DNA from: a virus
Reading direction: 5' to 3' (one strand)
DNA length: 36,248 nt
Virus record (IMG/VR): IMGVR_UViG_3300042544_003106
Span: 1 to 36,248 of that record
Under the pieces are notes generated by a model. That model did not search any database. It saw only the letters and a list, made by a program, of their open reading frames with translations, and had not been told where the DNA came from. Shown here piece after piece: positions 4,045 through 33,306 of this stretch. Both the position numbers and the translations under genes were made by a program. The first letter of the stretch is position 1, and the number at the start of each line of letters is the position of its first letter.

Positions 4045-4048
4045 CGTT

Positions 4049-4066
4049 TGCAAAATCACGGTAGAA
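4049..4066 (+). promoter_or_regulatory. Late promoter-like motif, copy 2 (capsid)
   Basis: TGCAAAATCACGGTAGAA shares the core CAAAATCACGGTAGAA with the copy at 20441 and differs at one core position from the copy at 241. It follows a terminator immediately, which is where a fresh start for strong capsid expression would be expected. It lies 177 bases before the capsid ATG, much further than the other two copies lie from their genes. Confidence 0.6.
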
Positions 4067-5702: not shown

Positions 5703-5728
5703 TCCGCCTGCCAACTGCTGACATCCCC

Positions 5729-5772
5729 GCGGGCGGCAGCGTGAACCTTCACGCCGCCGCCCGCTTTCCTTT
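5729..5772 (+). terminator. Long hairpin between head and tail genes
   Basis: The stem has two blocks, GCGGGCGGC/GCCGCCCGC and GCGTGAA/TTCACGC, with one mismatch between them, a two-base loop, and TTTCCTTT after it. It is the third hairpin in this area and separates the head genes from the tail genes. No promoter-like motif copy follows, so readthrough into the tail genes is probably needed. Confidence 0.8.
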
Positions 5773-5781
5773 CCGCCCGTC

Positions 5782-6420
5782 ATGACCACCGTCACCGCTC
5801 TCGCCAATCGCGCCCTCGCCCACCTCGGCGAAGCTGCCATCACGGACATCACGGACACCACCAGCACGCACGCCCGCGTCTGCAATGAGTTTGCCCAGCA
5901 GGTCATCGACGAGACCCTCCGCACCCACCGCTGGAACTGCGCCATCGCCCGCGCCACCCTCGCCGAGCTGACCGACGCGCCCAACCACGGCTTCGAGCAC
6001 GCCTTCCAGCTCCCCGCCGACTTCCTCCGCCTGCTCGAGGTGAATGGCGAGCAGTTCGACGGCTCCGACGAATACCTCGAAATCGAGGAAGGCCAGCGCC
6101 TCCTCACCAACCAGAGCGAGGCCAAGATCCGCTACGTCAAGCGCATCACCGTCCCGGAGTTCGATCCCCTCCTCGCCAAGGCCGTCGCCCTTGCCCTGGC
6201 CGTCGAGATCGCCGTCCCGCTTTCCGCCAATCTCCAGCTCCAAGGCCAGCTCGCCACCCTCCACGCCCGCGCCCTCTCCCAGGCCCGCAAGGTCGATGCC
6301 GTCGAGACCAGCTCCCGCGAGAACCGCCCCATGGCCCGCATCTTGAACAACTCCCCGCTCATCCGCGCCCGCGGCCGCCGCCGCGGCTACGATCCCGAGC
6401 GCTACGTCCTCCCCGAATAA
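5782..6420 (+). CDS. Tail tubular protein A-like adaptor
   Basis: This protein of 212 residues matches T7 gp11-type tail tubular protein A, the dodecameric adaptor that joins portal and nozzle. The N-terminus (LANRALAHLGEAAITDI) and the following helix with RVCNEFAQQVIDETLRTHRWNCA are the classic opening of this family. LPADFLRLLEV and SEAKIRYVKR form the central beta part, and the C-terminal third is helical with a basic tail. Length is typical. It is followed six bases later by the nozzle protein gene, as in T7-like and BPP-1-like genomes. Confidence 0.9.
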   Translation: MTTVTALANRALAHLGEAAITDITDTTSTHARVCNEFAQQVIDETLRTHRWNCAIARATLAELTDAPNHGFEHAFQLPADFLRLLEVNGEQFDGSDEYLEIEEGQRLLTNQSEAKIRYVKRITVPEFDPLLAKAVALALAVEIAVPLSANLQLQGQLATLHARALSQARKVDAVETSSRENRPMARILNNSPLIRARGRRRGYDPERYVLPE

Positions 6421-6426
6421 GCCGCC

Positions 6427-8910
6427 ATGCCTGAAATCATCGAGCGCCGCATCTCCTTCAATGGCGGGGAACTTTCCCCGTGGACCGACCCACGGCTGGA
6501 CCTGGAGAAATACCGGAACTCCTGCCGCACCTTGGAGAACTTCCGGCCCAACGTCTACGGCGGCGCCTTTTCCCGCGCCGGCACCGTCTTCATCGCGGAG
6601 CAGGACCACCCCGAAGGCATCGGCCGCGTTGTCCCTTTCGAGTTCAGCGCCACCACCAATCTCATCCTCCTCTTCACCGACGAGCTGATTCGCGTCTGGA
6701 CCACCGGGGCCACCCCCGCCATGCCCGTCGTGGACGCCTCCTCCACCGTCGGCACCTGGGGCAGCCTCCAGCCCTACACCGCCGGCCAGTATGTCGAAAA
6801 GACCGGCACCAATGCCGGCATCTACTACTGCCTCGTCTCCCACGGCTCCGTCACCTTCGCCACCGACCTCGCGGACGGAAACTGGGAACTCGCCACCGAG
6901 TTCAAAATCGCCACCCCCTACGCCGCCGCGGACCTCGCCGCCCTCCAGTTCGAGCAGCTCAACGACCGCATCTTCATCTCCCACCCCTCCTACGCCCCGC
7001 GCGTCCTTTCCCGCCTGGCGAATAACAAGTGGTCCCTCGAACTCCTTGCCCTGGAATACCCGCCCCTCCGCGACGAGAACATCACAGCCTCCACCATCGG
7101 GGCTTCCGCGGTCACCGGCCTCTCGATCACCCTCACCGCGTCCACCTCCACCTTCGCCGCCGGCCACGTCGGCTCCCGCTGGCTCATCACCCACCGCCGC
7201 GACGAGCCCTCGGTCGAGTTAGGCATCAAGACCGCCGTCACCGTCGGCACCGCTTCCGACGCCCTCTTCGTCCTTGGCGAATGGTCCTGCTCCCTCGTCG
7301 CGGCCGAAGGCACCAGCAACTGGAACGTCACCGCTGTCATCCAGCGCAGCACCGACAAGAGCACCTGGGAAACCATCCGCACCATCGCCGGCTCCCGGCT
7401 CGACCAGTCCGGCCTCATCACCGGCACGGAGATCGATCCGTGCTGGCTCCGCATCCTCAAGACCGTGGAGGACGGCACCCCGCCGACCAATGGCTCCTGG
7501 AAGCTCGAGGCGATCGATCCCGACCACCACGGCATCGTCGAGATCATCGGCTTCACCTCCGCCACCTCCGTCTCCGCCCAGGTCATCTTCGAGCTGGGTG
7601 CCACCGCCGCCACCACCAAGTGGAACGAGGCCGCCTGGAGCGACTTCCGCGGCTGGCCCCGCTCCGTCTGCATCCATGAGACCCGCCTCTTCTTCGGCGG
7701 GAATTCCGCCCAGCCACAGACCATCTGGGGCAGCGTCATCGATGACTTCGGGAACTTCCGCACCGGCAGCGATGACGACCTCGGCCTTGCCTTCACCCTC
7801 GCCGGCCAGAAGGCAAACGCCGTGCAGTGGCTGGTTTCCCAGGAGGCCCTCATCATCGGCACCTCCGGCGCCGAAGGTCCCATGGGATCCCGGGAGTCCG
7901 ACAAGGCCCTCACCCCCACCAATGCCAAGGCCGGCCGCTTCACCCAGACCGGCTCCGCCCACATCCGCGCCATCCCCGTCCAGGACGCCGTCATCTTCGT
8001 CCAGCGCTCCGGCCGCAAGGCCTGGGAGTTCGCCTTCGCTTTCGAGTCAGACGGCTACAAGGCCAACGACCTCACCCTCCTCGCCGAGCACGTCACCGAT
8101 GGCGGCATCACCGGCATCTCCCTCCAGCGGAATCCCGAGAGCGTCCTCTGGGCCGTCACTGGCGATGGCACCCTCCTCGGCCTCTCCTACGACCGCGCCC
8201 AATCCGTCGCCGGCTGGTGCCGCTACGTCACCGATGGCTTCTTCGAGTCCGTCGCCGTCGTCGGCGGAGCAGGCGAGGAGGACGAGATCTGGGTCACCGT
8301 CCGCCGCACCGTCGATGGGGACACCGTCCGCTACCTCGAGCGCTTCCAGCCCGACCGCATGCGCCTGCTGAAGGATGGCGATGCCGAGCAGATCGTCAGC
8401 GCCGACGCCGCCGTCATCTACGACTCTACCCCCGCCACCACCATCACCGGCCTCGACCACCTCGAGGGGGAAGAGGTCACCGTCCTCGCCGATGGCGCAC
8501 CCGTCGGCCTCCACACCGTCACCGGCGGGGAGATCACCCTCGACACCGCCGCCAGCGTCGTCATCGCCGGCCTACCCTTCACCGCCACCCTCGAGCCCAC
8601 CTTCCTCGAAACCGGCGACCCCGGCAGCTTGTCGAAGGTCGCGTGGAAGCGCATCCACCGCGTCCACATGGAACTCTGGAAATCCCTCGGCGCCGAGGTC
8701 ACCGCCGACGCCGGGGCGAACTGGGAGCGCGTCCAGTTCGCCGCCCAGGGCGTTTCCATGGACGAGGCCCTCCCCCTCTTCACCGGCTACAAGGACGCCC
8801 ACGTCACCAGCCGCAGCGAGCGCCAGGCCTCCGTGAAGATCCGCCAGACCCAGCCCCTCCCTCTCAATATCCTCTCGCTCCACATCCGCCACGAGATGAA
8901 CACCATCTGA
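6427..8910 (+). CDS. Tail tubular protein B-like nozzle
   Basis: This protein of 827 residues is related to T7 gp12, the hexameric nozzle at the tip of the short tail. The N-terminus is diagnostic of the group: ISFNGGELSPWTDPRLDLEK, then a CRTLENFRPNVYGG segment, then strands ending in ILLFTDELIRVW. The central half is beta-rich with many Thr/Ser/Gly repeats, and a GNSAQPQTIWGS segment is common in these proteins. It is longer than T7 gp12 but within the usual range for BPP-1-like nozzles. Codon use is uniform with its neighbours. Confidence 0.88.
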   Translation: MPEIIERRISFNGGELSPWTDPRLDLEKYRNSCRTLENFRPNVYGGAFSRAGTVFIAEQDHPEGIGRVVPFEFSATTNLILLFTDELIRVWTTGATPAMPVVDASSTVGTWGSLQPYTAGQYVEKTGTNAGIYYCLVSHGSVTFATDLADGNWELATEFKIATPYAAADLAALQFEQLNDRIFISHPSYAPRVLSRLANNKWSLELLALEYPPLRDENITASTIGASAVTGLSITLTASTSTFAAGHVGSRWLITHRRDEPSVELGIKTAVTVGTASDALFVLGEWSCSLVAAEGTSNWNVTAVIQRSTDKSTWETIRTIAGSRLDQSGLITGTEIDPCWLRILKTVEDGTPPTNGSWKLEAIDPDHHGIVEIIGFTSATSVSAQVIFELGATAATTKWNEAAWSDFRGWPRSVCIHETRLFFGGNSAQPQTIWGSVIDDFGNFRTGSDDDLGLAFTLAGQKANAVQWLVSQEALIIGTSGAEGPMGSRESDKALTPTNAKAGRFTQTGSAHIRAIPVQDAVIFVQRSGRKAWEFAFAFESDGYKANDLTLLAEHVTDGGITGISLQRNPESVLWAVTGDGTLLGLSYDRAQSVAGWCRYVTDGFFESVAVVGGAGEEDEIWVTVRRTVDGDTVRYLERFQPDRMRLLKDGDAEQIVSADAAVIYDSTPATTITGLDHLEGEEVTVLADGAPVGLHTVTGGEITLDTAASVVIAGLPFTATLEPTFLETGDPGSLSKVAWKRIHRVHMELWKSLGAEVTADAGANWERVQFAAQGVSMDEALPLFTGYKDAHVTSRSERQASVKIRQTQPLPLNILSLHIRHEMNTI

Positions 8911-11610: not shown

Positions 11611-14600
11611 ATGTATTCCCTCACCTCCGGCATCCCGCAGTCCGCCGCCAATCCCCTCATCGGCCTCCTCACCGGCGACGACGAGCGCCAGGCCAAGGAA
11701 AACGCCTGGCGTCTCAAGGCCACCGATGCCCTCGACCAGGCCGTCCTCGACTACGATGGCTTCATCAAGGGCAAGCCCGCCCCGCCCCTCGACTTCGCCG
11801 CGGACCCCGAGACCGCCCGCAAGCAGGGCATCGTCGCCAGCTACCTCCAGATCCAAGCCGGCGGCCGTCCCATCTCCACCGATCCCGTCCAGCTCTCCAT
11901 CCTCCGCGACCGCGTCGCCGACCAGCAGTTCTCCGGCCGCGGCAAGGGCGATGACCTCGCCTTCTACGGGGAGATCGAGAAGGAGACCATCGCCCGCAAG
12001 CAGACCCTCGACCTCGCCCATGAGATGCAGTCCGCCGCCACCACCGGCGCGCTTCTCCGCGAGACCTCAGATGCCGGCTTGGATTCCAAGTCTTTCCAAC
12101 TCTGGCGGGAAGAAGCCAAGACCAAGCCCGGCTACCAGCCCGGCATGGACTACGCCTACATGGAGGCCTGGCGCGACACCCAGAAGGCCCTCCGCCAGAA
12201 CGTCGAGCCCTACCTTGGCCCGCTCAAGCAAGTCTGGAACTCCATGCAGTCCGGCGGGGCCAACTGGTACGATGCCTGGGAACAAGTCCCCGCGGAAAAC
12301 CGCGAGCAGTTCATGGCCTCCCTCGCCATTCTGGCCCGCGCCCTCCCCGCCGACAAGCAACCCGCTTTCTGGAGCAACCTCACCACCCAAGCCCAGCGCG
12401 ACATCCAAGGCCAAGCCATCAACGTGATGGAAGGCTTGAGCACCGCCCTCGATGAAGGCGGAATGTTCAACTACCCACTCAATGACCCAGCCGAGACGCC
12501 GGAGCAAACAATCGCCAGAGAAGCCTCCACCGCGGAAAACCGCTCCCGCAAAAACTTCATCGCCGACGTCGAGCGAATCCGCAACGAGACCTACGACCCC
12601 GTCAAGGTCCTCAACCCCGACTCCGCCATCCTCCGCACCCTGGAGCGCGGAGCCTACGCCGTCCCCGGCGTTGTTGCCACCAGTGCCGTCGCCCTTGTCC
12701 CCTTCGCCGGCCCCGCCGCCACCTACTACCACATGGAGGAAAGCGCCTATCGCGACATGCGCCGGACCCTCATGGATGGCGGCATGTCAGATGCAGATGC
12801 CTCTGACACCGCCGAAGGCCTCGCCCCCATCATCGCCATCCCCCAGGCCCTCCTTGAGCGCATCGGAGCCGGAGCCCTGATCGGCAAGGTCCCCGGCCTC
12901 GAAAAGGTGCTCGCCGCCACCACCAACCGCATCACCTCCACCGCCGGCCGCTACGCCGCCCGCACCGCAGCCATTGCCGGCTTCGAGACCGCCATCGAGA
13001 ACACCCAGGACCTCATCCCCGCCCTCTTGCAGGATGCCGCCAGCGCCCTCGAGAAGGACATCCCCGGCGTCGTCTGGAAGAACGGCAAGGACGGCTTCTT
13101 CGACGGCTACTGGGAAAAGACCGCCACCACCGCCGTCGCCATCCTTCCCCTCGCCCTCATCGGCGGCGCCGGCGGCATCTCCGCCGAAGGCCGCGCCCGT
13201 GCCTTTGCCGAAGCTCCTGACCTCCACCTCCGCGTCCTCGGCATCTCTCCGGATGGCGTCGCCCGCATCCGCGAAGCCCAGTCCCAAGGCCGCTTCCAAG
13301 CCGAGCAGGCCATCGAGGCCGAACTCGCCACCCGCGATCCCCGCAGCGAGGACGCCATGGACGCTACCCAGGAACTCGCCGAGACCCTTCAAGCGGAAAA
13401 GCAAGCCGCCGCCGCCGCTTCCGACAACGGCATCATGCCCCGCGCCGTCCGCGGCACCGATGGCACCTGGACCCTCTACGACACCGCCACCGGCCGCGAG
13501 ATCGGCCAGGCCCCCGACTGGCAGCGCGCCGCCCAGCTCGCCACCACCCACGCCAATTTCTCCGCCGACCAGGACGCCGACCGCATCGCCCTCGTCTTCT
13601 CCACCTACCAAGCCGCCGAAGTCTCCGGCCAATGGGGCACCGACACCAACCGCCCCACCGAGATCAACCTCGACCTCGGCCGCCAGCTCACCGCCCAGCA
13701 AGCCGCCACCGAGTCCTCCAGCGCCCGCGAGCGCGTCGCCGCCCAGGAGCGCCTCATGGGAGGCGATGGCAGCGTCACCAACGTCGTCCTCGGCCAATCC
13801 CGCACCGAACTCGCCCAAGGCCAGCTCCGCACCGTCAACCGCATCCTCGAAGGCGGCAGCGTCCTCGACGTCTTCCACGAAGAAACCCACGGCTTCCGCC
13901 GCCAGGCCCACGCCCGCGGCATCCTCACCCGCGAGGACGACATCGCCTTCGTCACTGCCGTCAATACCGTCCTCCAAGGTCAGACCACCCGCGAAGGCCA
14001 GTCCCTCCAGCTCCTCCCCGACAACTTCGACACTCTTTCCGAGTCCGACCAGGAGACCGCCCTCGACGAAGCCATCTCCGCCATCGCCGAGGCCGAAGTC
14101 ATCCGCACCCGCAAGCCGGCGCAAGCCGGCCAAGAGGGGCGCGGGCGGCTCGCCCGCAGCCTCCCCGCCGGCCTCGTCAGCAACAACCTCTCCGCCCTCG
14201 CCCGCCTCCTCGGCGACCGCACCCTCGGCAAGTTCCGCAGCTTCATCAATGCCATCCGCGAATACTTCGGCCTCGCCATCGATCGCGCCGCCCAGATCCA
14301 GCGCGGCCTCGCCGACGGCACCCTGGACCAAGCCACCTACGAGGGATATTTGACCAAGCTCCTCGGCGTGGACGAGCAGATCGACTACGACCAGATGGCC
14401 CGCGATGCCGAGTCCGCTATCCTCGACGGGGCCGAACTCGCCCCGGCCATGGCCGGCGATCCGTTCAGCCTCGGCCGGCGCACCACCGTCACCCCGAACG
14501 CTTCCACCCGTGCCTTCCCCGGCGCGGAAGGTTCGCCCTCCGTCATCGGCCCGGCATCCTTCTCCATCCGCGCCCACCACGGCACCCCGCACAAGGTGGA

Positions 14601-17600
14601 CCGCTTCTCCACCGGGAAGATCGGCACCGGCGAAGGTGCCCAGGCCTACGGCTGGGGGCTGTATTTTGCGGAAGCGGAAGAAGTCGCCAAGGAATACCAA
14701 GGGATGCACGCCGATCCTCTTGAGAAGTCCGGCTATTACGACCGCAACATCGCCGCCCTCGACAATCACCTCCAGCGAGTTCCAACCGATGAATACGCCA
14801 AGGCGCAGCGGGACAACATGGCAGAGCAAAAACGCCAAGCCCAGCTTCGCTCCGGCAACCTCTACACCGTCACCCTCAAGCTCGAAGACGACCAGCTCCT
14901 CGACTGGGACAAGCCCTTGAGCGAGCAGCCGGAGGCCGTGCGGTCGGCACTGGCAAATTATCGTCCAAGCAGCATTCCAGAAGGCCGGACACTGGAAAGC
15001 ATGGACGGCAAATTTCTCTATCGGATGGCCCTTGGAGATTTGGCAGATTCAAGTGGACCTGATGCAGCAGCAAAAGCTGCTTCAGCATTGTTTGCATCCC
15101 GCGGCATCCGCGGCATCCGCTTCCTCGATGGCAACAGCCGCGGCAAAGCTGCCGCCAGCATTTTCCAACAAGAGGGCCGCTGGAACGTCATTTACAATGA
15201 CCCTGCCAACGGACTGGCAATCCGCACAGACACGTTTGACACTGAAGCGGAGGCCAAGGCATTGGTCGAAGCCCTGCCAGGCTCCTACAACTACGTCATC
15301 TTCGACGACGCCGACATCGAGATCCTCGAAGAGAACGGCCAACCGGTTACACTGACCAACCGATCCACCGACTCACCGGCATTCTCCCTCGGCTCCCGCC
15401 CCGGCCTCCCTCAAACCGCGGCCAACATCATCGCGCTTGCCAAGGAATTGGATCCGGAAGGATTCAAGACCGCCGCCGCCGATGCCGCTGCCTACGTCAA
15501 ACGCCGCGAGGCGGAAGGCATCCCGCTCGGGCCTGTTCTGGCCGGCGACCAGATCACGCTGGCCGCGCAGGGCGTGCTCGTCAAATTCGCCGACAAAGAC
15601 CCCCGTGCCATGGCCATGCTCGCCGGCTACGGCGCGGACCAGTTCTCCTTCTCCATCGCCCCCAGCCGGCTCCGCATCAAACCTCCGAAGGGCGTCACGG
15701 CCATCCGCACCGATAGCCTGCCGGTGTGGGACATCGAGCAGGACAAGGCGACCAGCCTGCCCAAAGTGCTGAACACCCCGGCCGCCCGCGCCAAGTTCTT
15801 CGCGCGGCTGGACGAGGCTCTCGAGTATCTGCGGGCAGACCCCGCGCGGATCACCACCGGCCCCGGCTGGGTCAAGTTCCTGCGGATGGCCGGCATCTAC
15901 GGCAAGGTCCCCATGCCTCCCAGCGGCCTGACGGAAATCATCAACGATCCGGCGGCCTACGTCGCCAAGCTCAACGGCGAGTATCACGGCGAGCGCACCA
16001 TCGACTCGACGCAGGAAAGCGCCCGGCAAGGCCTGGACGGAACCCGGGAAATGCGGGAGATCATCGGCGAAGGCCAGGCGCCAGCACCTTGGGCGGTCGC
16101 CCTGCATCACCTGTGGGGCGTCCTTTCGCGGATGTTGCCACCCCTCCAGCAGGAAGGCATGTGGTTGCGCTTGATCGCCCACCGGCCCGTGCTCGATGCC
16201 ATCCAGTCGTCGATTGACGGCACATTCGACATGGGTCTTGCCGATTGGGAGCAAGTCGTCAGCGCCGCGCGGGAGGAATCAGCACAAGACGCCGGCCAGG
16301 TCGGGAACAGCGCCACGGCCAACGCCAATTCGTTCTTCCTCATGCTCCGCAACCTCAACGGTCGCTGGCAGGACGCCGCGGATGTCTACGCGGCCCCGAC
16401 CTCCCGCGAGATGGGCCGGCGGTTCTGGGCGCTCGATGCTGGTGCCCTCGGCATCAAGAACAAGGTGCAGCGGTTCATCGGCCTTACCTTCGGCGTGCCC
16501 GGTGTCATCATGGACCGCTGGAAATTCGTGGAGTTCTGGCTGCCCACTGCCATGGAAGGCACCGGCGCGGAAACCACCTCCGACTTCTTCCGCTACGGCC
16601 AGAACACCCCTTCGGATCCCACCGGCATCTATGGCGTCTACGGTCAGGTGGATTCGGACAACCCGGCCTTGTCCCTGGCGATGTATGAGGCCTTCGAGGT
16701 GGTCCTCCAGGAAGCCATCAACAAGTCACCCGAACTCCAGTCCCACCTGGGCGACCACGCCAACCCGGGTGGCATGCACTGGCACGGCTGGAATGCGATC
16801 AAGAACGAAGCTGTCGGGCACAGTTCCCTCGACCTGACAAAGGATCTTCAACGCGCCTTTGGCGTTGCCATCACGGCCGAAGACGTCCACAATACCCTTC
16901 GCAATGGAAGCTACTTCACCGAAGGGGCCGAGACCCAGCAGTCCAACCTCAAAGTCACCCTCGAGCGCGGAAAAATTCGTCTCGAAAGGACCGGCATGGC
17001 CGGCGGACTTCAGCCAGGACCTGCCGGAATTCTCGGACAAGGAGCTGGCCGAAGCGCTGGCCGAAGCGGACAGCAAGCCGCGGAAGTAGCCCCCGCCTTC
17101 TCCCTCGGCTCCCGCCGCCTCGGCGTCCTCACCCAGGATTCCATCCGCCGCATCCAGAACCCACTCCGCCGCGCGCAGGCCATGGAGCGCGTCTCCCGCA
17201 AGCTCGAGGAACTCCGCCTCGAGGCCGAGCGCCTCGAACTCCTCTCCGGCACCAAGCGCCTCAAGCGCAGCCTCGCCCGCGAAGCCGCCATCCGCCAGGC
17301 CCTCCGCCGGGAGGAACTCGAAAACGAAGCCTGGGCACGCCACGCCGCCATCCTCTCCGATGACGACCTGACCAAGCTCCGCGGCCAGCCCCTCCACTCC
17401 TTCTTCGGCGATCCCTCCAGCCCCCTCCGCGGCCGGCTCATGAGCAAGACCGCCGCCGTCAAGAAGCACCCCGACCTCTTCACCCTCCACAATCCCGGCG
17501 ACTACGATGGCTCCGAGTCCGTCTCCCGCACCGTCTTCGGCGGAGACCTCGCCCCCGACCAAGCCGCGCAGGAAGCATTCGACGCCGGCCTCCTCCGCGA

Positions 17601-20379
17601 ACCCACCACCGATGCCCTCTGGCAGGCCCTCGAATCCGAGTCCCGCCACGTCGCCAGCATGAAGAAGGTCCTGGAATCCGCCAAGGCCGACCTCCGCGAA
17701 GCCCGCACCGTCGCCAAGGCCGAGACCAATGCCTGGCTCGCCACCCAGACCGACCAGCAGGCCGCCACCTACTCCCCCCGCCAGGAGATCCTCCGCAGCC
17801 TCGCCGCCCTGGATGCCATCCTCTCCTCCGTCCCCGCCGAGATCCGCGGCAAGGTCGGCGGCTGGGTCCAGGCCGCCCGCATCGCCGACCCCGATGCCGG
17901 CCTGCAGTTCCTCCGCGAGCGCCTCGCCAAGGTGGACGTCGAGCTGGAGAAATACCTCAAGTCCCAATACAACCTCGAATTCCTTGCCCTCCTCGACCGC
18001 GCCCGCCCCGAGAAGGACGAGGCCGGCAAGCGCCCCCGCGGCAAGATCGGCGCCGACGTCCACAGCCTCTTCGCCGACCTCCGCGAGGCCATGACCCTCA
18101 CCGCCGCCGAGACCGAGGCCGAGGCCACCCGGCTCGAGATCCTCGCCGAGCAGGAAGACCTCACCCCCGAGCAGCAGGCCCACGCTATGCTCCAAGCGAA
18201 CCTCGTCCGCCTCGTTGGCGACTGGCCCCGCGCCAGCGCCGCCCGCCGGGAAGCCGCCGTGCTCGAAGCCACCCGCGTCTTCGAATCCGGCTACATGGCC
18301 GAAAAGATCCGCATGTCCCGCCAGCGCGAAGACCGTGCCAAGAAGCGCACCAACCTCGCCGCCGCCACTGGCAAGGCCGGCACCCGCGAAGAACGCCGCG
18401 ACCGTGCCCAGCGCGACGAAGGCACCCGCACCGGCCGCGTCCTCAAGGCCGGCCTCTCCCTCATGTCCTTCGAGCAAGTCGTCCAGAAGGCCTTCGGCGA
18501 AGGCACCCCGGACGCCGAGGCCCTGGTCGATTGGGAACGCCGCGCCGCCCACGCCAAGGCGGATGCCCTCCAGAACAAGCTCGACCTCCTCGACGATCTC
18601 TTTGCCTCCCTCGCCGGCGGCAAGCTCAAAGGCGAACAGCTCCGCTTCGAAATGTCCAACGCCAAGGGCATCACCGCCACCGATGCCAAAGGCCGCGAGC
18701 ACACCTTCAGCCAGCTCGAGGCCATCACCGCCACCCTCATGTGGCGGCAGGAAGACGGCCGCCGCCACATGGAAGGCCACGTCGATGACCAAGGCGCACC
18801 CGCCGGGGAATGGAACTACACCCAGGACTTCGTCGATCAGCTCGAGGACCAGCTCACCGACAACGCCAAAGCCATCCGCCTCCACCTCGCCGCCCAATAC
18901 GGTGCCGAATACGAGCGCCTCAACAGCGTCTTCCGTCAGCTCTACGGCGTCTCCCTCCCCCGCCACGCCCACTACTCCCCCCTCACCGTCAAGCCCGCCC
19001 AGGCTGGCGCTGGCCAGACCCTCGACCCCGTCACCGGCTCCACCATGACCGGCGCAGGCCTCACCCCTGGCAGCCTCAAGACCCGCTCCCAGACCGCCAT
19101 CGCCGAGCCTGATTTCCGGGATGCCCTCCAGACCTACATCGGCCACTCCAAGCAGATGGAACACTGGATCGCCTACGCCCCCTTCGCCACCGAGGCCATG
19201 GCCCTCATCAATGCCCGCAACGTCGGCAACTCCGTCGAAGCCGCCGCCGGCAAGGAAACCCTCCAGACCCTCCGCGGCTGGCTCGACGTCTTCGCCCAGG
19301 GCGGCACCCGCGACGCCGCCGCCCACCTCGCCGCCAACCAACTCATGGGCCGCATGGTCGGCCGCGCCGCCGCCGTCGCCCTGGTCGGCCGCGTCTCCGT
19401 CCTCGCCATCCAGTCCACCCAGCTCGGCGCCGCCCTCGCCGAGATGCCCGCCGCCGCCTACATCACCCGCTTGGCCAAGCTCTTCGCCGGCCGCCTCGAC
19501 TGGGGTCCGGCCCTCCGCAGCGACTACATCCAGCGCCGCAAGGCCACCATGCCGCCCGTCGTCCAGCAGGCCCTCGAAGGTCTCAGCAGCTCCAAGCCCA
19601 GCCGCCTCAAATACCTCGCCCGCAAGATGGGGGAAACCATCTCCGGCGCGGATGCCATCTTCACCGCCGGCACCTACGCCATCGCCTACGACTACCACCT
19701 CAAGCAAGCCCAGCAGATCGGAGTGGCCGATCCCCACGCCTACGCCCGCCAGGCCGCCGAACGCTCCACCGATCGCGTCGCCCAGCCCGTCCGCCCCGGC
19801 ACCCGCTCCCTCTACGAGGTCACCGGCACCAATCCCGCCGTCCGCATCGTCTGGAGCTTCGCGTCGGATGCCCGGCAAAAGCTCATGCTTTCCGCCTACG
19901 CCCTCGGCTCCAAGAAGTCGAAGGGAGCCAAGGCCCGCGCCCTGGCCGTCACCTGGCTCGCCGGTGGCCTCGTCGCCTCCGTCATCCGCGCCACCATGCG
20001 GGACCTCCGCGATGACGATGACGACGAGTTCTTCGACGAAAAGAACTGGGATCCCAAGCGCCTCGCCCTCGCCTCCCTCACCGGCCCCTTCGGCGGCCTG
20101 CCCTTCCTCGGCGATGCGCTCGAGGCCACCGCCTTCGGCCTCGCCGGGGAATACCTCCCCGATGGCAACCTCTTCTCCAACGCCCCCAAGGCCGTCGAGC
20201 GCTCCGCCGATCTCCTCATGGGAGACCACCCCGAGGACCTCGAGGAAGCCGCCAAGGATGCCGAAACCATCCTCTCCGGCGCCGGTCTCTTCTCCGACTC
20301 CGCTGCCGCCACCGCCAGCTTCTCCCACCTCATCCGCGACCTCATCGCCATCGCCGAGAACTTCACCGGCACCGACTGA
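11611..20379 (+). CDS. Giant polyvalent virion protein with metallopeptidase-like and ADP-ribosyltransferase-like modules
   Basis: The open frame has 2,922 codons, a quarter of the genome. By size and place it is the largest ejection protein (T7 gp16 position), and its domain mix is that of phage polyvalent proteins injected with the DNA. Modules in order: a helical N-terminus with hydrophobic segments near 351 and 511; HEETH at 756-760; an ADP-ribosyltransferase-like module (HGTP 990-993, GWGLYFAE 1014-1021, YNYVIFDDAD from 1226); a second unnamed domain around MDRW 1634-1637; a charged coiled-coil region; and a C-terminal part with a hydrophobic segment near 2777 resembling large polyvalent-protein-associated domains such as LPD38. 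FSLG(S/R)R linkers occur at 952, 1258 and 1830. Codons about 1789-1826 appear to be read in the wrong frame (see 16971-17089), so the true product may be two proteins. Confidence 0.8.
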   Translation: MYSLTSGIPQSAANPLIGLLTGDDERQAKENAWRLKATDALDQAVLDYDGFIKGKPAPPLDFAADPETARKQGIVASYLQIQAGGRPISTDPVQLSILRDRVADQQFSGRGKGDDLAFYGEIEKETIARKQTLDLAHEMQSAATTGALLRETSDAGLDSKSFQLWREEAKTKPGYQPGMDYAYMEAWRDTQKALRQNVEPYLGPLKQVWNSMQSGGANWYDAWEQVPAENREQFMASLAILARALPADKQPAFWSNLTTQAQRDIQGQAINVMEGLSTALDEGGMFNYPLNDPAETPEQTIAREASTAENRSRKNFIADVERIRNETYDPVKVLNPDSAILRTLERGAYAVPGVVATSAVALVPFAGPAATYYHMEESAYRDMRRTLMDGGMSDADASDTAEGLAPIIAIPQALLERIGAGALIGKVPGLEKVLAATTNRITSTAGRYAARTAAIAGFETAIENTQDLIPALLQDAASALEKDIPGVVWKNGKDGFFDGYWEKTATTAVAILPLALIGGAGGISAEGRARAFAEAPDLHLRVLGISPDGVARIREAQSQGRFQAEQAIEAELATRDPRSEDAMDATQELAETLQAEKQAAAAASDNGIMPRAVRGTDGTWTLYDTATGREIGQAPDWQRAAQLATTHANFSADQDADRIALVFSTYQAAEVSGQWGTDTNRPTEINLDLGRQLTAQQAATESSSARERVAAQERLMGGDGSVTNVVLGQSRTELAQGQLRTVNRILEGGSVLDVFHEETHGFRRQAHARGILTREDDIAFVTAVNTVLQGQTTREGQSLQLLPDNFDTLSESDQETALDEAISAIAEAEVIRTRKPAQAGQEGRGRLARSLPAGLVSNNLSALARLLGDRTLGKFRSFINAIREYFGLAIDRAAQIQRGLADGTLDQATYEGYLTKLLGVDEQIDYDQMARDAESAILDGAELAPAMAGDPFSLGRRTTVTPNASTRAFPGAEGSPSVIGPASFSIRAHHGTPHKVDRFSTGKIGTGEGAQAYGWGLYFAEAEEVAKEYQGMHADPLEKSGYYDRNIAALDNHLQRVPTDEYAKAQRDNMAEQKRQAQLRSGNLYTVTLKLEDDQLLDWDKPLSEQPEAVRSALANYRPSSIPEGRTLESMDGKFLYRMALGDLADSSGPDAAAKAASALFASRGIRGIRFLDGNSRGKAAASIFQQEGRWNVIYNDPANGLAIRTDTFDTEAEAKALVEALPGSYNYVIFDDADIEILEENGQPVTLTNRSTDSPAFSLGSRPGLPQTAANIIALAKELDPEGFKTAAADAAAYVKRREAEGIPLGPVLAGDQITLAAQGVLVKFADKDPRAMAMLAGYGADQFSFSIAPSRLRIKPPKGVTAIRTDSLPVWDIEQDKATSLPKVLNTPAARAKFFARLDEALEYLRADPARITTGPGWVKFLRMAGIYGKVPMPPSGLTEIINDPAAYVAKLNGEYHGERTIDSTQESARQGLDGTREMREIIGEGQAPAPWAVALHHLWGVLSRMLPPLQQEGMWLRLIAHRPVLDAIQSSIDGTFDMGLADWEQVVSAAREESAQDAGQVGNSATANANSFFLMLRNLNGRWQDAADVYAAPTSREMGRRFWALDAGALGIKNKVQRFIGLTFGVPGVIMDRWKFVEFWLPTAMEGTGAETTSDFFRYGQNTPSDPTGIYGVYGQVDSDNPALSLAMYEAFEVVLQEAINKSPELQSHLGDHANPGGMHWHGWNAIKNEAVGHSSLDLTKDLQRAFGVAITAEDVHNTLRNGSYFTEGAETQQSNLKVTLERGKIRLERTGMAGGLQPGPAGILGQGAGRSAGRSGQQAAEVAPAFSLGSRRLGVLTQDSIRRIQNPLRRAQAMERVSRKLEELRLEAERLELLSGTKRLKRSLAREAAIRQALRREELENEAWARHAAILSDDDLTKLRGQPLHSFFGDPSSPLRGRLMSKTAAVKKHPDLFTLHNPGDYDGSESVSRTVFGGDLAPDQAAQEAFDAGLLREPTTDALWQALESESRHVASMKKVLESAKADLREARTVAKAETNAWLATQTDQQAATYSPRQEILRSLAALDAILSSVPAEIRGKVGGWVQAARIADPDAGLQFLRERLAKVDVELEKYLKSQYNLEFLALLDRARPEKDEAGKRPRGKIGADVHSLFADLREAMTLTAAETEAEATRLEILAEQEDLTPEQQAHAMLQANLVRLVGDWPRASAARREAAVLEATRVFESGYMAEKIRMSRQREDRAKKRTNLAAATGKAGTREERRDRAQRDEGTRTGRVLKAGLSLMSFEQVVQKAFGEGTPDAEALVDWERRAAHAKADALQNKLDLLDDLFASLAGGKLKGEQLRFEMSNAKGITATDAKGREHTFSQLEAITATLMWRQEDGRRHMEGHVDDQGAPAGEWNYTQDFVDQLEDQLTDNAKAIRLHLAAQYGAEYERLNSVFRQLYGVSLPRHAHYSPLTVKPAQAGAGQTLDPVTGSTMTGAGLTPGSLKTRSQTAIAEPDFRDALQTYIGHSKQMEHWIAYAPFATEAMALINARNVGNSVEAAAGKETLQTLRGWLDVFAQGGTRDAAAHLAANQLMGRMVGRAAAVALVGRVSVLAIQSTQLGAALAEMPAAAYITRLAKLFAGRLDWGPALRSDYIQRRKATMPPVVQQALEGLSSSKPSRLKYLARKMGETISGADAIFTAGTYAIAYDYHLKQAQQIGVADPHAYARQAAERSTDRVAQPVRPGTRSLYEVTGTNPAVRIVWSFASDARQKLMLSAYALGSKKSKGAKARALAVTWLAGGLVASVIRATMRDLRDDDDDEFFDEKNWDPKRLALASLTGPFGGLPFLGDALEATAFGLAGEYLPDGNLFSNAPKAVERSADLLMGDHPEDLEEAAKDAETILSGAGLFSDSAAATASFSHLIRDLIAIAENFTGTD
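13876..13890 (+). other. HEETH metallopeptidase-like motif in the giant protein
   Basis: Residues 756-760 read HEETH, within SVLDVFHEETHGFRRQA. HExxH is the zinc-binding motif of zincin metallopeptidases, and the hydrophobic residues before it and the Gly after it fit that fold. Zincin domains are known in polyvalent proteins. A third zinc ligand is not obvious, so activity is not proven. Confidence 0.6.
14135..14160. repeat. REP-like palindromic repeat inside the giant gene, copy 1
   Basis: This 26-base element is identical to 20391-20416. Its core is the palindrome GCGGGCG-GCT-CGCCCGC (14141-14157). It is read in frame as EGRGRLARS within the giant protein. Just before it, GCAAGCCGGC is repeated twice in tandem (14111-14130). 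Confidence 0.8.
14560..15340 (+). other. ADP-ribosyltransferase-like module of the giant protein
   Basis: This module has the three usual landmarks of the ART-PolyVal group: an HGTP box, a G-x-GEGAQAYGWGLYFAE box, and a later strand with NYVIFDDADIEIL. Such domains transfer ADP-ribose from NAD+ to a target and would act in the host cytoplasm after injection. From about 14930 to 15380 base use is less GC-skewed than in the rest of the gene (many cat, gca, ttt, tat codons), which suggests the module came from elsewhere. Confidence 0.75.
16971..17089 (+). other. Segment of the giant gene whose real frame is +1, ending in TAG
   Basis: After the A5 run at 16971-16975 the annotated frame reads as low-GC3 nonsense (GPAGILGQGAGRSAGRSGQQ). 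The +1 frame has almost pure G/C third positions and a sensible acidic helix (DLPEFSDKELAEALAEADSK) that ends at TAG 17087-17089. The annotated frame becomes convincing again right after that, at APAFSLGSR. Either one A is extra, or ribosomes slip here, or a domain cassette with its own stop was fused in. If split, the second protein could start at ATG 17182. Confidence 0.7.
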
Positions 20380-24866: not shown

Positions 24867-24898
24867 CCTGACAAGGGCGAATTCCCCGTCAAATCAGG
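24867..24898 (-). terminator. Hairpin at the end of the integrase gene
   Basis: CCTGA and TCAGG form the outer stem and GACAAGGG/CCCCGTC pairs form the imperfect inner stem around CGAATT. It overlaps the integrase stop codon and may end leftward transcription or act as part of the attachment region. Confidence 0.4.
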
Positions 24899-26141
24899 CA
24901 CCCGCCGCCCGAGCGACCCCTTGCGCTCCACTGTCCAGCCCTCTGGAAATCGGATCAAATCGGATCATTCCCGGGCGCAGGCCAAACCACTCGGCACCCT
25001 CTTCCGAGGTCCGTGGATTATGGTAATGCCGGCGGAGCATGGTCTCCGATGTCCCCATCTCCTCGGCCACCTGGGGGAGGTTCCGAAGCACCGCATTCCG
25101 CATGGAACCGTAGGAGTGACGCAGCGCGTCTTGCGGCCAGCCGTCCTTGAAGACCACCTTGCCGAGTCGCAGCGTCTCCCCGGCTTCCGTCGGATTCACT
25201 CCGCACACCGCTCCCACCATCCCGGGACGGATCCCCGCCCACTCCAGCCAAGCCCGCGCCGCGGGTAGCAGAGGGATATGCCTCGGCGTGTTGATCTTCG
25301 AGACCTCGGCCGGCAGCCGGATCACGTTGAATTGCCAGTCGATCTCCTCACACCGCAACCCGCGTTTCCCTCGCCGCGTCTTCACCTTCCCCATCACTGG
25401 GGAAATCTCTTCCGGCCGCAACCCGCAGAACGCGCCCAGCACCACCCAGGGGCGCCACTCGACCCCTACCTTGGCCAGCACGGCCAGCACCTCGCCCGAC
25501 GTCAGGACGCGCCGCTCGCACGGCTCGAGATCGACCCGCGGCAGCTTCTCGGCCGGCGTCACTTCCTTCGGGAAAATCCCGTCGCGCACGCACCAGTTCC
25601 AGAAGGCCACCAGGTTGCCCCGGCATTCGTTTCGCGTCTTGCCGCTCCGCTCACCCACCCTGGCCTGCCACCAAGCCGTCAGATCGCCGTCCGTGACATC
25701 CGTGACGCTCCGGCCGGCGAACGCCTTGGCCAGTGCCTCCAGATCCCGCCGGACGTTCGACAAGTGCCTCGTCGCCCCGCCTTTCTGGGCCTCCTTGAAA
25801 TCCATGAACCGCTCGACGCTGGCCACAATCTCCGCCGACTTCCGCCGGCTCGCCAGAAAACCCAGCACCGCGGCCCGATCCGCTTCCGTGGAAAGCCGGT
25901 GGACCTCCTGCAGGTACCGCCGCGCGGCTGGGTCCAGCCCGCTCCACACCAGCCCCCCGGCATCGATCTCCCCCAGCTTCTTCCAAGCCGCCTCTTCCGC
26001 CGCTTTCTTCGTCGTCCGCGTCACATACCGCCACGGCTCGCCCTCCCGCTCCCTCCACCCGAATCGCCAGCCGTCCCCGTAGGGATAGACCGTCAGATGG
26101 GAATTCCCTCGACGAACGACCGATCTTTTTTTAGCGCTCAT
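24894..26141 (-). CDS. int: Tyrosine recombinase (phage integrase)
   Basis: This protein of 415 residues catalyses integration and excision of the phage. There is an N-terminal arm-binding-like part (VYPYGDGWRFGWRERE), a SAM-like core-binding domain around residues 95-185 and a catalytic domain after 205. Visible catalytic residues are Arg242 (CGLRPEEI), Lys282 in the beta-hairpin, Arg341-His342 (ALRHSYGS) and the nucleophile Tyr373 (RRHYHNP). The first His of the HxxR box is replaced by Asp338. I chose the ATG at 26141 because AGGGGGA lies seven bases upstream; the longer frame from 26192 is less likely. It is one of only two minus-strand genes and is divergent from the gene at 26158. Confidence 0.92.
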   Translation of the reverse strand: MSAKKRSVVRRGNSHLTVYPYGDGWRFGWREREGEPWRYVTRTTKKAAEEAAWKKLGEIDAGGLVWSGLDPAARRYLQEVHRLSTEADRAAVLGFLASRRKSAEIVASVERFMDFKEAQKGGATRHLSNVRRDLEALAKAFAGRSVTDVTDGDLTAWWQARVGERSGKTRNECRGNLVAFWNWCVRDGIFPKEVTPAEKLPRVDLEPCERRVLTSGEVLAVLAKVGVEWRPWVVLGAFCGLRPEEISPVMGKVKTRRGKRGLRCEEIDWQFNVIRLPAEVSKINTPRHIPLLPAARAWLEWAGIRPGMVGAVCGVNPTEAGETLRLGKVVFKDGWPQDALRHSYGSMRNAVLRNLPQVAEEMGTSETMLRRHYHNPRTSEEGAEWFGLRPGMIRFDPISRGLDSGAQGVARAAGA

Positions 26142-26157
26142 GACATTCCCCCTGGGT

Positions 26158-26424
26158 ATGAAAAAATTCTTCACTGTCTTCGGCGTTGCCACCTTGGCCC
26201 TTTACTTCACGGGCTTCCTCTCTTTTGGCTCCTGGCAAGCAGCAGGACTTTCCCTCGGAAGCCTCGCAATTCTTTCCCTCGGCCTCGGCCTCGCATTGAA
26301 CAGAGAGTCTTCCAAGCTCCGCAAACGAGCCAAGAATGACGGACGCAGCGTGACCTCGAACGAACACGACGGAATCCGTGTCTACCACCCGGACGGATCC
26401 CAGACGTTTCATCGTTATCGGTGA
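26158..26424 (+). CDS. Small two-span membrane protein between integrase and RHH genes
   Basis: This protein of 88 residues has two hydrophobic segments (FFTVFGVATLALYFTGFLSF and AAGLSLGSLAILSLGLGLAL) and a polar, basic C-terminus ending HPDGSQTFHRYR. An earlier in-frame ATG at 26140 overlaps the integrase start as CATG. Its codon use is less GC-biased than that of the late genes. Placed next to the lysogeny region and divergent from int, it could be expressed in the prophage and alter the cell envelope, for example superinfection exclusion. No family was recognised. Confidence 0.6.
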   Translation: MKKFFTVFGVATLALYFTGFLSFGSWQAAGLSLGSLAILSLGLGLALNRESSKLRKRAKNDGRSVTSNEHDGIRVYHPDGSQTFHRYR

Positions 26425-26546: not shown

Positions 26547-26780
26547 TCACGCGGCGGGCGACCTCTTTGCTGAAAAGGATTCCGCCGTAGGCTTCGCGGC
26601 ATCCACCACCGCGCCCGGAATGTTCCAGTTGATCCGGCGGAGATCCTCAAACCCGATCTTCATCGCGAGCCGCATCACGTCGGCCTTGGATAGGCCGGTA
26701 AGACGCGCCGCTTCTTCGATTTTCGCTTCCAGATCCGGCTCGATCCGGATGGGAACTGGGCTGCTTTTGTCTTTGGCCAT
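26547..26780 (-). CDS. Ribbon-helix-helix DNA-binding protein (leftward)
   Basis: This protein of 77 residues has an Arc/MetJ/CopG-like RHH core: strand PVPIRIEPDLEAKIEEAAR, then LTGLSKADVMRLAMKIGFED. The start at 26780 gives the usual short N-terminus before the DNA-contacting strand. An upstream frame to 26858 lacks support and overlaps the operator. It is divergent from a second RHH gene (26858), with a perfect palindrome between them. In an Arc/Mnt-type arrangement one would be the lysogenic repressor and the other its antagonist. No Shine-Dalgarno is present. Confidence 0.8.
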   Translation of the reverse strand: MAKDKSSPVPIRIEPDLEAKIEEAARLTGLSKADVMRLAMKIGFEDLRRINWNIPGAVVDAAKPTAESFSAKRSPAA

Positions 26781-26830
26781 AGGGGAGTAAATCACTTTGT
26801 AGAGGATTGCGCTACATTTTTCTTGTGATC

Positions 26831-26847
26831 GTATACGAAACGTATAC
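26831..26847. promoter_or_regulatory. Operator palindrome GTATACG-AAA-CGTATAC
   Basis: This perfect 17-base inverted repeat lies in the 77-base gap between the two divergent RHH genes, eleven bases before the rightward start. RHH proteins bind such short palindromes as dimers of dimers. It overlaps probable -10 elements for both directions (TATAC on either strand). It is the obvious binding site for one or both proteins. Confidence 0.75.
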
Positions 26848-26857
26848 ATTTCCCTCA

Positions 26858-27064
26858 ATGAGCAAGCGCGCCCACGCCAACAAGCCCTCCACCGCCCCCG
26901 CCGATAAAGTCGTTCACCTCCGCATCCCGGGCGACCTCGACACCAAGGCCGCCGAAGTCGCCGCCAAGGTGAAGCTCAAGAAGCCCGACGCCATGCGCCT
27001 CGCGATGGACCGCGGCCTCGACATCCTCCGCGATCAACTTTCCAGCGCGGCACCCGCCGCCTGA
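26858..27064 (+). CDS. Ribbon-helix-helix DNA-binding protein (rightward)
   Basis: This protein of 68 residues has a basic, Pro/Ala-rich N-terminus, the RHH strand KVVHLRIPGDLDTKAAEVAA, then KVKLKKPDAMRLAMDRGLDIL. The second helix (DAMRLAMDRGLDIL) is closely similar to that of the leftward protein (DVMRLAMKIGFEDL), so the two are probably related. I chose ATG 26858; the frame upstream from 26807 runs through the operator. It heads the rightward early region and is the likely Cro-like or repressor partner in the switch. Confidence 0.8.
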   Translation: MSKRAHANKPSTAPADKVVHLRIPGDLDTKAAEVAAKVKLKKPDAMRLAMDRGLDILRDQLSSAAPAA

Positions 27065-27171: not shown

Positions 27172-27474
27172 ATGAATCCAATCGAAGCATCGCTCCGCGC
27201 TCTTTCCCACAACACCGGGAACGCCCTGGCCGAACAAGACAAGCAGGCCACCGCACCGGCACCGATCCCCGCGCCCCCTGCCGTCCCGCTCCACCTCGGC
27301 CCCGCCTTCTTCAAGGACCTCGAAGCCGTCACCCTGCTCCTTGAGTGCGACCCCAAGCCCGTCTGGCTCCGCGCAGCCGCGTCGGAACTTGAGACCATGG
27401 CCAACTACCTCCGCACCGTGGCCGCCGCCCGCGAACAGGCCGCTGCCCGCGGCAACCAAGAGGCCCAGCCATGA
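27172..27474 (+). CDS. Hypothetical early protein
   Basis: This protein of 100 residues has an Ala/Pro-rich centre (APAPIPAPPAVP) followed by a helical C-terminus (FFKDLEAVTLLLECDPKPVW, then ELETMANYLRTVAA). It has no signal peptide or membrane segment. It opens a run of genes linked by ATGA overlaps that continues to 28287. No family was recognised. Confidence 0.65.
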   Translation: MNPIEASLRALSHNTGNALAEQDKQATAPAPIPAPPAVPLHLGPAFFKDLEAVTLLLECDPKPVWLRAAASELETMANYLRTVAAAREQAAARGNQEAQP

Positions 27475-28491: not shown

Positions 28492-28962
28492 ATGACGATC
28501 ATCCTCCCCATCCCCGACCGCCGCATCTCGCCGAACGCCCAGCGCGGCCAGTCGAAGTTCGCCGCATTCAAGAAGTCCCGGCTGATCAAGGTCCACCGAA
28601 CCCGAGCCCGCCTCCTCACCCTCGAGGCCATCGGCACCCTCTACCACGCCCAGGGCCGCCCCGTCCCCGCCTTCACCGGCTACACCCTCGCCCACTTCTT
28701 CCCCACCGCCGCCTGGCGGGATGACGACAACGCCGACGCCGCCTGCAAGGCCTACCGCGACGGCATCGCCGACGCCCTCGGCATGGATGACCGCCAGCTC
28801 CCCAAGCTCGCCCTCTCCACCCGCGACAAGGACGCCGATCGCCCGCGCGTCGAGATCACCCTCCACACCCTTTCCAGCTCCCCGCTTCCGCCGGCTCCTT
28901 CACGGGACAGCATGGTCGGCGGCAGCGGGACCCTTACCCCGAACCCGACCCGAACCCCATGA
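28492..28962 (+). CDS. RusA-like Holliday junction resolvase
   Basis: This protein of 156 residues shows the RusA-type core: an N-terminal strand with PIPDRRISPNAQRG, then WRDDDNADAACKAYRDGIAD followed by ALGMDDRQLPKLAL, which carries the acidic metal-binding residues of the family (D in DDN, D in MDD). The enzyme cuts branched DNA during replication and recombination so that it can be packaged. The C-terminal 30 residues (Ser/Pro/Thr-rich) look like an unstructured extension. The stop overlaps the next ATG. Confidence 0.75.
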   Translation: MTIILPIPDRRISPNAQRGQSKFAAFKKSRLIKVHRTRARLLTLEAIGTLYHAQGRPVPAFTGYTLAHFFPTAAWRDDDNADAACKAYRDGIADALGMDDRQLPKLALSTRDKDADRPRVEITLHTLSSSPLPPAPSRDSMVGGSGTLTPNPTRTP

Positions 28963-29243
28963 CCGCCACCACCATCACCCAGGCCCTTCACCGTGCCCGG
29001 AAAGCCAAGATCAACCGGCTCTCCGACCTCCTCGCCCTCATCCACCTGGCCGGCGTCAAGCACGCCACTGCCACCAACCTCGCGGCGGAGAGCGGAGTCA
29101 GCACCGCCGCCGCCACCCAGCTCATCGACAGGCTCGCCGACAGCGGCCTCGTCAACCGGCACCACGACACCCTCGACCGCCGCCTCGTCCTCACCGCCAT
29201 CACGGCCAAGGGCCGCGAACTCATCACCCCCTTCCTCCCGTGA
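28959..29243 (+). CDS. Winged-helix (MarR-like) protein 1
   Basis: This protein of 94 residues has the MarR-type order: helix (LSDLLALIHLAG), then HATATNLAAESGVSTAAATQ and LIDRLADSGLVNR, then the wing with RRLVLTAITAKGRELI. It is a compact DNA-binding protein without a ligand pocket extension. It is the first of four short winged-helix proteins in the early region. The start overlaps RusA's stop and the stop overlaps the next GTG. Confidence 0.8.
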   Translation: MTATTITQALHRARKAKINRLSDLLALIHLAGVKHATATNLAAESGVSTAAATQLIDRLADSGLVNRHHDTLDRRLVLTAITAKGRELITPFLP

Positions 29244-29526: not shown

Positions 29527-29835
29527 ATGCCCTCCCCCATCGCTCCCGCCCTCGCCAACAACCGCATCGGATTCGCCCGTCGCCTGATCGCGCGCTTCCG
29601 TCAGCAGAAACAGCCGCCCTTCGCCCGCTACGGCATCGTCCTCTCCGTCGCCGAATACGGCGAGCAGGGTGCCACCGCCGCCCAGATCGCCAAGGCCATG
29701 GGGGATCCCATCATCGGCGGATCCCTCCAAAAGATTGAGGAAACGGGACTGGTCCGCCGCGTCCACGACACCCGGCCGCTCCGCTTCGTCCTCACCGAGA
29801 CAGGTGCCCGCCTCGTCAAAGACCTGACCGCATGA
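29527..29835 (+). CDS. Winged-helix protein 2
   Basis: This protein of 102 residues begins with a basic, helical N-terminus (RLIARFRQQKQPP) and has the winged-helix series YGIVLSVAEYGEQGATAAQI, AKAMGDPIIGGSLQKIEETG, LVRRVHDTRPLRFVLTETGA. The wing is easy to see between the last two strands. It shares the overall form of the genes at 28959 and 29832, and its stop overlaps the start of the latter (ATGA). It probably binds DNA. Confidence 0.75.
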   Translation: MPSPIAPALANNRIGFARRLIARFRQQKQPPFARYGIVLSVAEYGEQGATAAQIAKAMGDPIIGGSLQKIEETGLVRRVHDTRPLRFVLTETGARLVKDLTA

Positions 29836-30233
29836 CCCCTGCCCGCACCCGAGACCAGCTCCGCCGCTTGCGCCACCGCATGCAGCACCTCGAGGACACC
29901 CTCGAGGACCAGATCGACGCCACCGTGGCCGATCCCTCCGCCTACTACGCCGCCGGCCTCCGCGATCTCCTCTCCGCCTCCATCCTCCACCTCCTCCACC
30001 AGGCTGGGAACGCCGGCCTCACCGTCGAGCAGATCCGGAACTCCATCCGCTGCGAACACCCTGCCGCCTTTGATGCCTTCCAGCGCCTCCACAAGGCCGG
30101 CCTCGTCACCGATCCCCAGCGCACCACCGGCCGCGGCCGTCCCTACCTCTGGACCATCCTCCCCGCCGGCACCGCCATCGTCACCACCCCGCCCCTCCGC
30201 TGCCTCAACGTCCAGCCCATCCTCCTCGCGTGA
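29832..30233 (+). CDS. Winged-helix protein 3
   Basis: This protein of 133 residues has an N-terminal coiled-coil helix (RRLRHRMQHLEDTLEDQIDA), probably for dimerisation. A winged-helix domain follows (SASILHLLHQAGNAGLTVEQ, then AAFDAFQRLHKAGLVTDPQ and the wing RGRPYLWTILPAGTAIV). Its stop overlaps a GTG start (GTGA at 30230-30233). The target is unknown. Confidence 0.75.
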   Translation: MTPARTRDQLRRLRHRMQHLEDTLEDQIDATVADPSAYYAAGLRDLLSASILHLLHQAGNAGLTVEQIRNSIRCEHPAAFDAFQRLHKAGLVTDPQRTTGRGRPYLWTILPAGTAIVTTPPLRCLNVQPILLA

Positions 30234-32928: not shown

Positions 32929-33306
32929 ATGGCCCCGCTCGATCTCCTCCTATCCATCCGCCGCGCCGGCCTGCCGGACGATGCCGCGCGCGTCCTCTTC
33001 GCCGTCGCCTCCGGCGTCTGCCGCTACGGGGCCATCCAGACATCCACCGGCCTCACCGAGTTCCAGACCCGCCGCATGCTGGCAAATCTCCGCGAGCGCG
33101 GGGCCATCCGCGTCGTCCTCTCCCCCAGCGCCGGCCATGGCCATGGTGCCGGCAAGCTCTCCATCTACTCCATCACCGCGGAAGGCATCGCCCTCGTCCG
33201 CAGCATCTTCGAGCAGCACCCGCCCGGCCACGCCCACCGCCGGCCGCCCGGTGCCCCGCTCCCGCTCCGCTTGAATGCCGCCGATGGCTTTTCATTCTTG
33301 GCATGA
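32929..33306 (+). CDS. Winged-helix protein 4
   Basis: This protein of 125 residues has the winged-helix order AARVLFAVASGVCRYGAIQT, GLTEFQTRRMLANLRERGAI, then a wing with a His/Gly-rich turn (SAGHGHGAGKLSIYSITAEG). The Pro/Arg-rich C-terminus looks unstructured. It lies right before the terminase small subunit, overlapping its start as ATGA at 33303-33306. It may control the packaging operon, but its position could be accidental. Confidence 0.72.
   Translation: MAPLDLLLSIRRAGLPDDAARVLFAVASGVCRYGAIQTSTGLTEFQTRRMLANLRERGAIRVVLSPSAGHGHGAGKLSIYSITAEGIALVRSIFEQHPPGHAHRRPPGAPLPLRLNAADGFSFLA

Follow-up and report, generated by a model that had tools for sequence, protein, structure and literature searches.

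The DNA analyzed here is a 36,248-base virus record (the window), which encodes T7-like head-tail adaptor and tail proteins, a terminase, a DnaC-like loader and a tyrosine integrase. This gene content identifies it as probably a temperate podovirus, and its host probably belongs to the Verrucomicrobiota. The feature under study (26547-27064) comprises two short open reading frames (ORFs) that diverge across GTATACG-AAA-CGTATAC (26831-26847), in agreement with an earlier sequence-only reading that described a divergent pair of related RHH proteins around a perfect palindrome; the second-helix motifs it named, DVMRLAM and DAMRLAM, were both found. RHH-A (77 aa; 26547-26780, minus strand, conserved ATG at 26780) is a predicted lysogenic (CI/Mnt-like) repressor in a short form that lacks an S24 domain. 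RHH-B (68 aa; 26858-27064, plus strand, conserved ATG at 26858) groups in a clade with the B proteins of other loci and is the predicted Cro/Arc-like opponent, encoded by the first gene of the early operon. The tyrosine integrase (24894-26192, minus strand) matches phrog_1 (E = 3.4e-16) and is 52% identical over 445 aa to the integrase beside a related pair in the bacterial genome G265. Sequence inspection places a small predicted membrane protein (26140-26424, plus strand) between the integrase and RHH-A. Membrane-type ORFs occupy the same RHH-A/integrase gap in L001, G265 and G321, and the gene is a candidate for lysogenic conversion or superinfection functions. Downstream of B, the early operon includes a RusA-like resolvase (28492-28962, plus strand), with orthologs downstream of B in G265 (72%) and G321 (67%).

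Membership of the two window proteins in the RHH superfamily is indicated indirectly, by way of their homologs. In Pfam scans, window RHH-A scored 18.3 bits against RHH_1, below the family cut-off of 20.5 bits, and window RHH-B gave no direct RHH_1 match; the cut-off is passed by homologs of each (21.7 bits for A of L076 and 25.6 bits for B of L083). Profiles of A and B align with one another over 44 columns (hhalign probability 98.5, E = 3.7e-15). AF2 monomer models display an extended N terminus followed by two helices, with pLDDT of about 63 and no confident Foldseek match, too weak a signal to be relied on. The strand-helix-helix sequence pattern, along with paired symmetric half-sites one helical turn apart, is shared with the CopG/MetJ/Arc superfamily (RHH_1), from which the pair would differ in serving phage immunity instead of plasmid copy control or metabolism. 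RHH antitoxins are similar in look, and weak NCBIfam matches, far below cut-offs, link window A to RelB-like proteins and L083 B to BrnA, as might be seen if A and B were antitoxins of toxin-antitoxin modules. We regard that explanation as highly improbable: no recognizable toxin family adjoins either gene, conservation of the pair does not extend to the ORF directly after B (27172-27474), and two such genes facing each other across common sites is not a toxin-antitoxin layout.

The 17-bp palindrome constitutes a putative operator, O1 (GTATACGAAACGTATAC, center 26839), composed of two GTATAC half-sites 11 bp apart and ending 10 bp before the RHH-B ATG. GTATACN5GTATAC has a single occurrence in the window and is absent from all 100 dinucleotide shuffles. 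A second, weaker operator, O2 (GTAGAGGATTGCGCTAC; 26799-26815, center 26807), is predicted on the A side, 32 bp from O1 (center to center), and is degenerate in the window. For B, a -35-like TTGTGA (26823-26828, plus strand) and a -10-like TACATT (26845-26850, plus strand) are separated by a 16-bp spacer and form a putative promoter, PB, whose -10 hexamer overlaps the end of O1. The candidate -10 of the A promoter (PA), TTTACT (26786-26791, minus strand), lies 5 bp before the A start codon and is a weak match to consensus; -10-like hexamers are present 4-6 bp before A in several relatives too. An automated promoter scan returned none at its threshold. With no Shine-Dalgarno sequence evident upstream of B, and with a -10-like hexamer only a few bases ahead of each start codon, the A and B mRNAs may be leaderless. 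Where the sequence-only reading had posited a single operator overlapping both promoters, we instead find two sites, with O1 covering the B promoter and O2 on the A side. No further operator copies were detected in the eight sequences scanned. Use in plasmid partition was considered and rejected, as there are only two sites and no repeat array.

Searching for the pair elsewhere, as had been proposed, revealed the module in ten IMG/VR phage contigs, the window among them, and every one encodes an integrase. A protein search with A led to L001, where the upstream DNA encodes a relative of B on the opposite strand, with the palindrome ATATACGAAACGTATAT between. Independently of this protein search, a DNA search for TATACGAAACGTATA returned 48 contigs, among them L001 and L030, which encode the pair. 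Profile searches added L056, L057 and L058, and then L070, L071, L076 and L077. All of these carry homologs of RHH-A, and S24-fused homologs are present in L083 and L078. Cultured phages yielded no usefully scoring relatives of A or B, and neither a plasmid search nor an integrase-based search of viral contigs recovered any. The exact 17-mer is not diagnostic by itself: seven other IMG/VR contigs possess the palindrome with no RHH neighbors, which we attribute to chance, and the weight lies on the conserved context.

We compared the geometry of this context at ten distinct loci: the window, L001, L030, L056, L070, L071 and L076, the two bacterial elements L083 and L078, which encode S24, and the chromosomal L119. 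The near-copies L057, L058 and L077 were excluded, and the ten loci are themselves related, such that the counts that follow are not fully independent. With B drawn rightward, the order is A start, O2, TTG, O1 and B start. The end of O1 lies 8-10 bp from the B-side gene start in nine of the ten loci and 22 bp from it in L119. A TTG begins 8-10 bp upstream of O1 at every locus (10/10; background, 0.105 per 3-bp window), and its position (TTGTGA-16-TACATT in the window, TTGCCA-16-TACAAT in L071) would place O1 in the spacer and -10 region of a promoter. The best O1-like second site is found 31-34 bp away in eight of ten loci, and is clear in L083 (GTAGTCAAAATGACTTC) and L078 (GTAGCAAGATTTGCTAC). 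The resulting signature, a divergent RHH pair with TTG, 17-bp palindrome and ATG in series and a second site 31-34 bp off, lets prophages be called and grouped by predicted immunity from sequence alone. In L030, an extra small ORF (2678-2881) is situated between O1 and RHH-B, and the O1 promoter there would drive this inserted ORF first.

When 24 RHH domains were placed in one tree, a single branch (support 98/97) separated every A protein from every B protein. A and B are homologous and form two old clades that span all the phages, which places the A/B split before the divergence of these phages. The suggestion that the switch was built by duplication is thus not borne out for this phage, and the tree speaks against a recent duplication as the origin of the pair. 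The A and B subtrees conflict with one another; for example, L030 and L076 have near-identical B proteins and dissimilar A proteins. This conflict indicates reassortment. The ten pair-bearing phage contigs look otherwise largely unrelated. When 36 window proteins were compared by tblastn with five relatives read in whole (G001-G005), the matches consisted of A and B, plus the integrase in G005 only, and the module therefore appears to move between otherwise different phages.

Similar divergent RHH pairs are also encoded in chromosomes outside recognizable prophages (L119/G539 and L051-L054), and such a module may thus not be a phage switch in every case. In L051-L054 (about 5700-6600), A-like RHH genes of Verrucomicrobiae are accompanied by divergent small RHH-like genes and a shared CTCAAGAAAAAA motif, and are located away from phage genes; these pairs are possibly a dispersed host regulator family. 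Chromosomal pairs of this kind, and the lack of additional operator copies in the eight scanned sequences, would be expected if A and B were a general, host-type autoregulatory RHH pair that phages acquired and that controls only itself or integrase and excision, not lysogeny. We consider this quite unlikely given that the module lies where integrase and early operon meet, in phages that otherwise differ, that O1 lies on the early promoter, that 10/10 viral records with the pair encode an integrase and that an S24 domain is fused to A in some homologs.

These fusions came from a survey of 388 genomes of the phylum around G010, a Verrucomicrobiae metagenome-assembled genome. The pair with phage-type neighbors was found in two of them, G265 and G321, both from Verrucomicrobiota and both integrase-linked. 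Gene order in G265 is that of the window, with the integrase (52% identical to the window's), a small ORF, A and B in divergent orientation and RusA (72%); in G321, an integrase adjoining tRNA-Gly is followed by divergent A and B and by RusA (67%). The tRNA-Gly gene (C3, about 160109-160183; L090:17110-17184) is a likely attachment site. No capsid genes were recognized in the two elements, which look partial. In both genomes, A consists of an RHH-type domain and then Peptidase_S24 (Pfam E = 1.3e-11 and 6.9e-8); hinge motifs (GSVAAG/GGLAAG) and the motif G(H/R)SMEP are also present. A PDB sequence search with the S24 part gave weak signal-peptidase matches only, and the S24 call therefore draws on Pfam and these motifs.

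Among 387 genomes of the order, G265 and G321 alone matched the RHH-S24 profile along its entire length; other S24 matches in those genomes mostly cover the C-terminal part only, and N termini were read for some of them. Queried against cultured phages, the A-S24 protein retrieved only repressors, the best match being of HTH type. The same S24 type is joined to HTH N termini in L095 and in Akkermansia phage Chambord, and these Verrucomicrobiota repressors differ from the G265 and G321 proteins in having HTH in place of RHH. S24 repressors are described as HTH proteins in a 2026 paper (PMC13148647), and full-text literature searches found no description of RHH-S24 proteins, an absence that is itself no proof of novelty. 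That one S24 type occurs with HTH (L095) and with RHH (G265 and G321) suggests that a different DNA-binding fold can be coupled to the half of a CI/LexA repressor that senses SOS. The S24 domain of the L095 repressor (3413-4384) shares 59% identity with its counterpart in the G265 RHH-S24 protein, and the divergent neighbor of this repressor is RHH-like in look, as though the two modules, HTH and RHH, had traded places. On the minus strand of L120 (G578), a possible third protein of the RHH-S24 kind faces a small RHH-like ORF across GTATAACTGA direct repeats.

We interpret the A and B region as a lysogeny control region, with A as prophage repressor and B as its Cro/Arc-like opponent, and assign this reading a probability of about 0.7. 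The strongest single argument for A as a lysogenic repressor is the LexA/CI-type S24 domain fused to it in two bacterial loci. The lysogeny switch put forward earlier thus survives in part: ten contigs, each with an integrase, share the pair in this orientation with the operator in this position, and S24 is present on A in two syntenic bacterial loci, but the single operator and the duplication origin are not supported. Counting against a switch are the weak promoter assignments, the absence of S24 from window A and the presence of MarR-type proteins that could share the repressor role.

The analysis itself establishes the genes, the two sites with their fixed geometry, the way O1 varies with the proteins, the integrase linkage and synteny, and the fusion of S24 to A in homologs; from these we infer DNA binding, the site preference of each protein, promoter strengths, leaderless mRNAs and the immunity function itself. 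On this model, RHH-A, encoded on the integrase side, would act as the prophage repressor by binding O1, which covers the spacer and -10 of PB, the early promoter; its occupancy of O1 would shut off RHH-B and the early/replication operon. Binding of A to the weaker O2 on the side of its own promoter, PA, would limit or tune its own synthesis. RHH-B, the first early product, would recognize the same or similar sites, repress A and moderate the early operon, as Cro or Arc do.

Contrary to the earlier assertion, A and B are not the only candidate repressors in the window, since a MarR-type protein is encoded at 28959-29243 (Pfam, 7e-9) and a weaker one at 29832-30233. Together with 32929-33306, these positions encode MarR-type and other winged-helix proteins of the early operon, which are possible extra regulators. 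CI/Cro-type HTH_3 proteins were detected in 0/10 viral records, which may be incomplete contigs (positive controls, 14/14), and Peptidase_S24 was likewise detected in 0/10 of these possibly incomplete records.

Phage P22 offers the closest precedent by layout. Its Mnt and Arc proteins both have the RHH fold and are divergently arranged. They are the repressors of the immI region (PMC2629481, PMC11016777), in which Mnt represses arc/ant and Arc inhibits mnt (PMC11016777). The window resembles immI in its two small divergent RHH repressors with operators between them, acting on both promoters, although here the sites are assigned by sequence only. In P22, however, this is a secondary immunity region that controls an antirepressor beside a separate C2/Cro switch, whereas here no C2/Cro-type protein was found, B heads the early operon, the pair adjoins the integrase and S24 is found on homologous A proteins. 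By analogy, A and B could control an antirepressor or accessory gene, as mnt/arc regulate ant and modulate the c2/cro region (PMC2629481, PMC11016777), with the main repressor being another, unrecognized protein; the MarR-type proteins of the window fit such a role. We judge this unlikely, because none of the ten viral records has an HTH_3 or S24 protein, B stands at the head of the early/replication side, no antirepressor is present among the Pfam matches scanned and A itself has a CI-type S24 domain in two homologous loci.

The lysogeny switch we favor shares with lambda CI/Cro and P22 C2/Cro a divergent repressor and Cro-like gene, several operators over both promoters (here by sequence), a repressor beside integration functions and an S24 autoprotease, here in two bacterial loci. 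It differs in having RHH in place of HTH, two recognizable operators and, in the window, an A protein lacking S24. Of the lambda-type features, HTH_3 CI/Cro proteins and a repressor S24 domain are absent from all ten viral records, S24 being confined to the G265 and G321 homologs; having no HTH, the module is not a CI/Cro family member. In the archaeal virus SSV1, the RHH protein F55 maintains lysogeny through repression of early genes and of the promoter of F55 itself (PMC5569661). F55 thus parallels A as an RHH protein in lysogeny maintenance (PMC5569661), but is a single RHH protein that acts at tandem-repeat operators, with no divergent RHH partner described there. The contrast with lambda-like phages that use HTH proteins had been offered as a novelty; P22 Mnt/Arc (PMC2629481, PMC11016777) and SSV1 F55 (PMC5569661) are precedents. 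The module resembles P22 immI in layout, lambda CI/Cro in its putative logic and SSV1 F55 in employing RHH for lysogeny.

The O1 variants of the different loci are fully or nearly two-fold symmetrical (GTATAC/GTATAC, ATATAC/GTATAT, GTATGC/GCATAC and GTAGTC/GACTAC). In the ten loci, the distance between operators tracks A distance (r = 0.51; partial 0.47, p = 0.0016) more closely than B distance (r = 0.35; partial 0.28, p = 0.049). A rule by which the operator follows A and not B would be too strong, as the association is stronger for A and weakly present for B also. Pairs of loci with a common operator and one differing protein offer a ready-made way to tell which protein reads the DNA. L083 and L119 have common half-sites, A proteins about 60% identical and B proteins about 24% identical; in L001 and L070, B is similar (about 72%), the operators differ and A is less similar (about 61%). 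Of the putative contact residues in the A strand, the third is R or K if the operator starts with G and A if it starts with A, a match that is suggestive only, with few lineages represented.

On balance, we lean toward a broader proposal, held with less assurance than the lysogeny reading itself: a family of Verrucomicrobiota phage switches in which the CI-like and Cro-like proteins are both RHH, operator specificities evolve as immunity groups (GTATAC, ATATAC, GTATGC, GTAGTC) along with the DNA-contacting strand of A, and some repressors are self-cleaving RHH-S24 proteins. Descriptions of Verrucomicrobiota phage immunity regions are largely absent from the literature, as far as we found. Elsewhere in the window, positions 11611-20379 form a single ORF of 2922 aa, flanked by internal virion/tail genes and a tail fiber gene, which probably encodes a giant internal virion protein.
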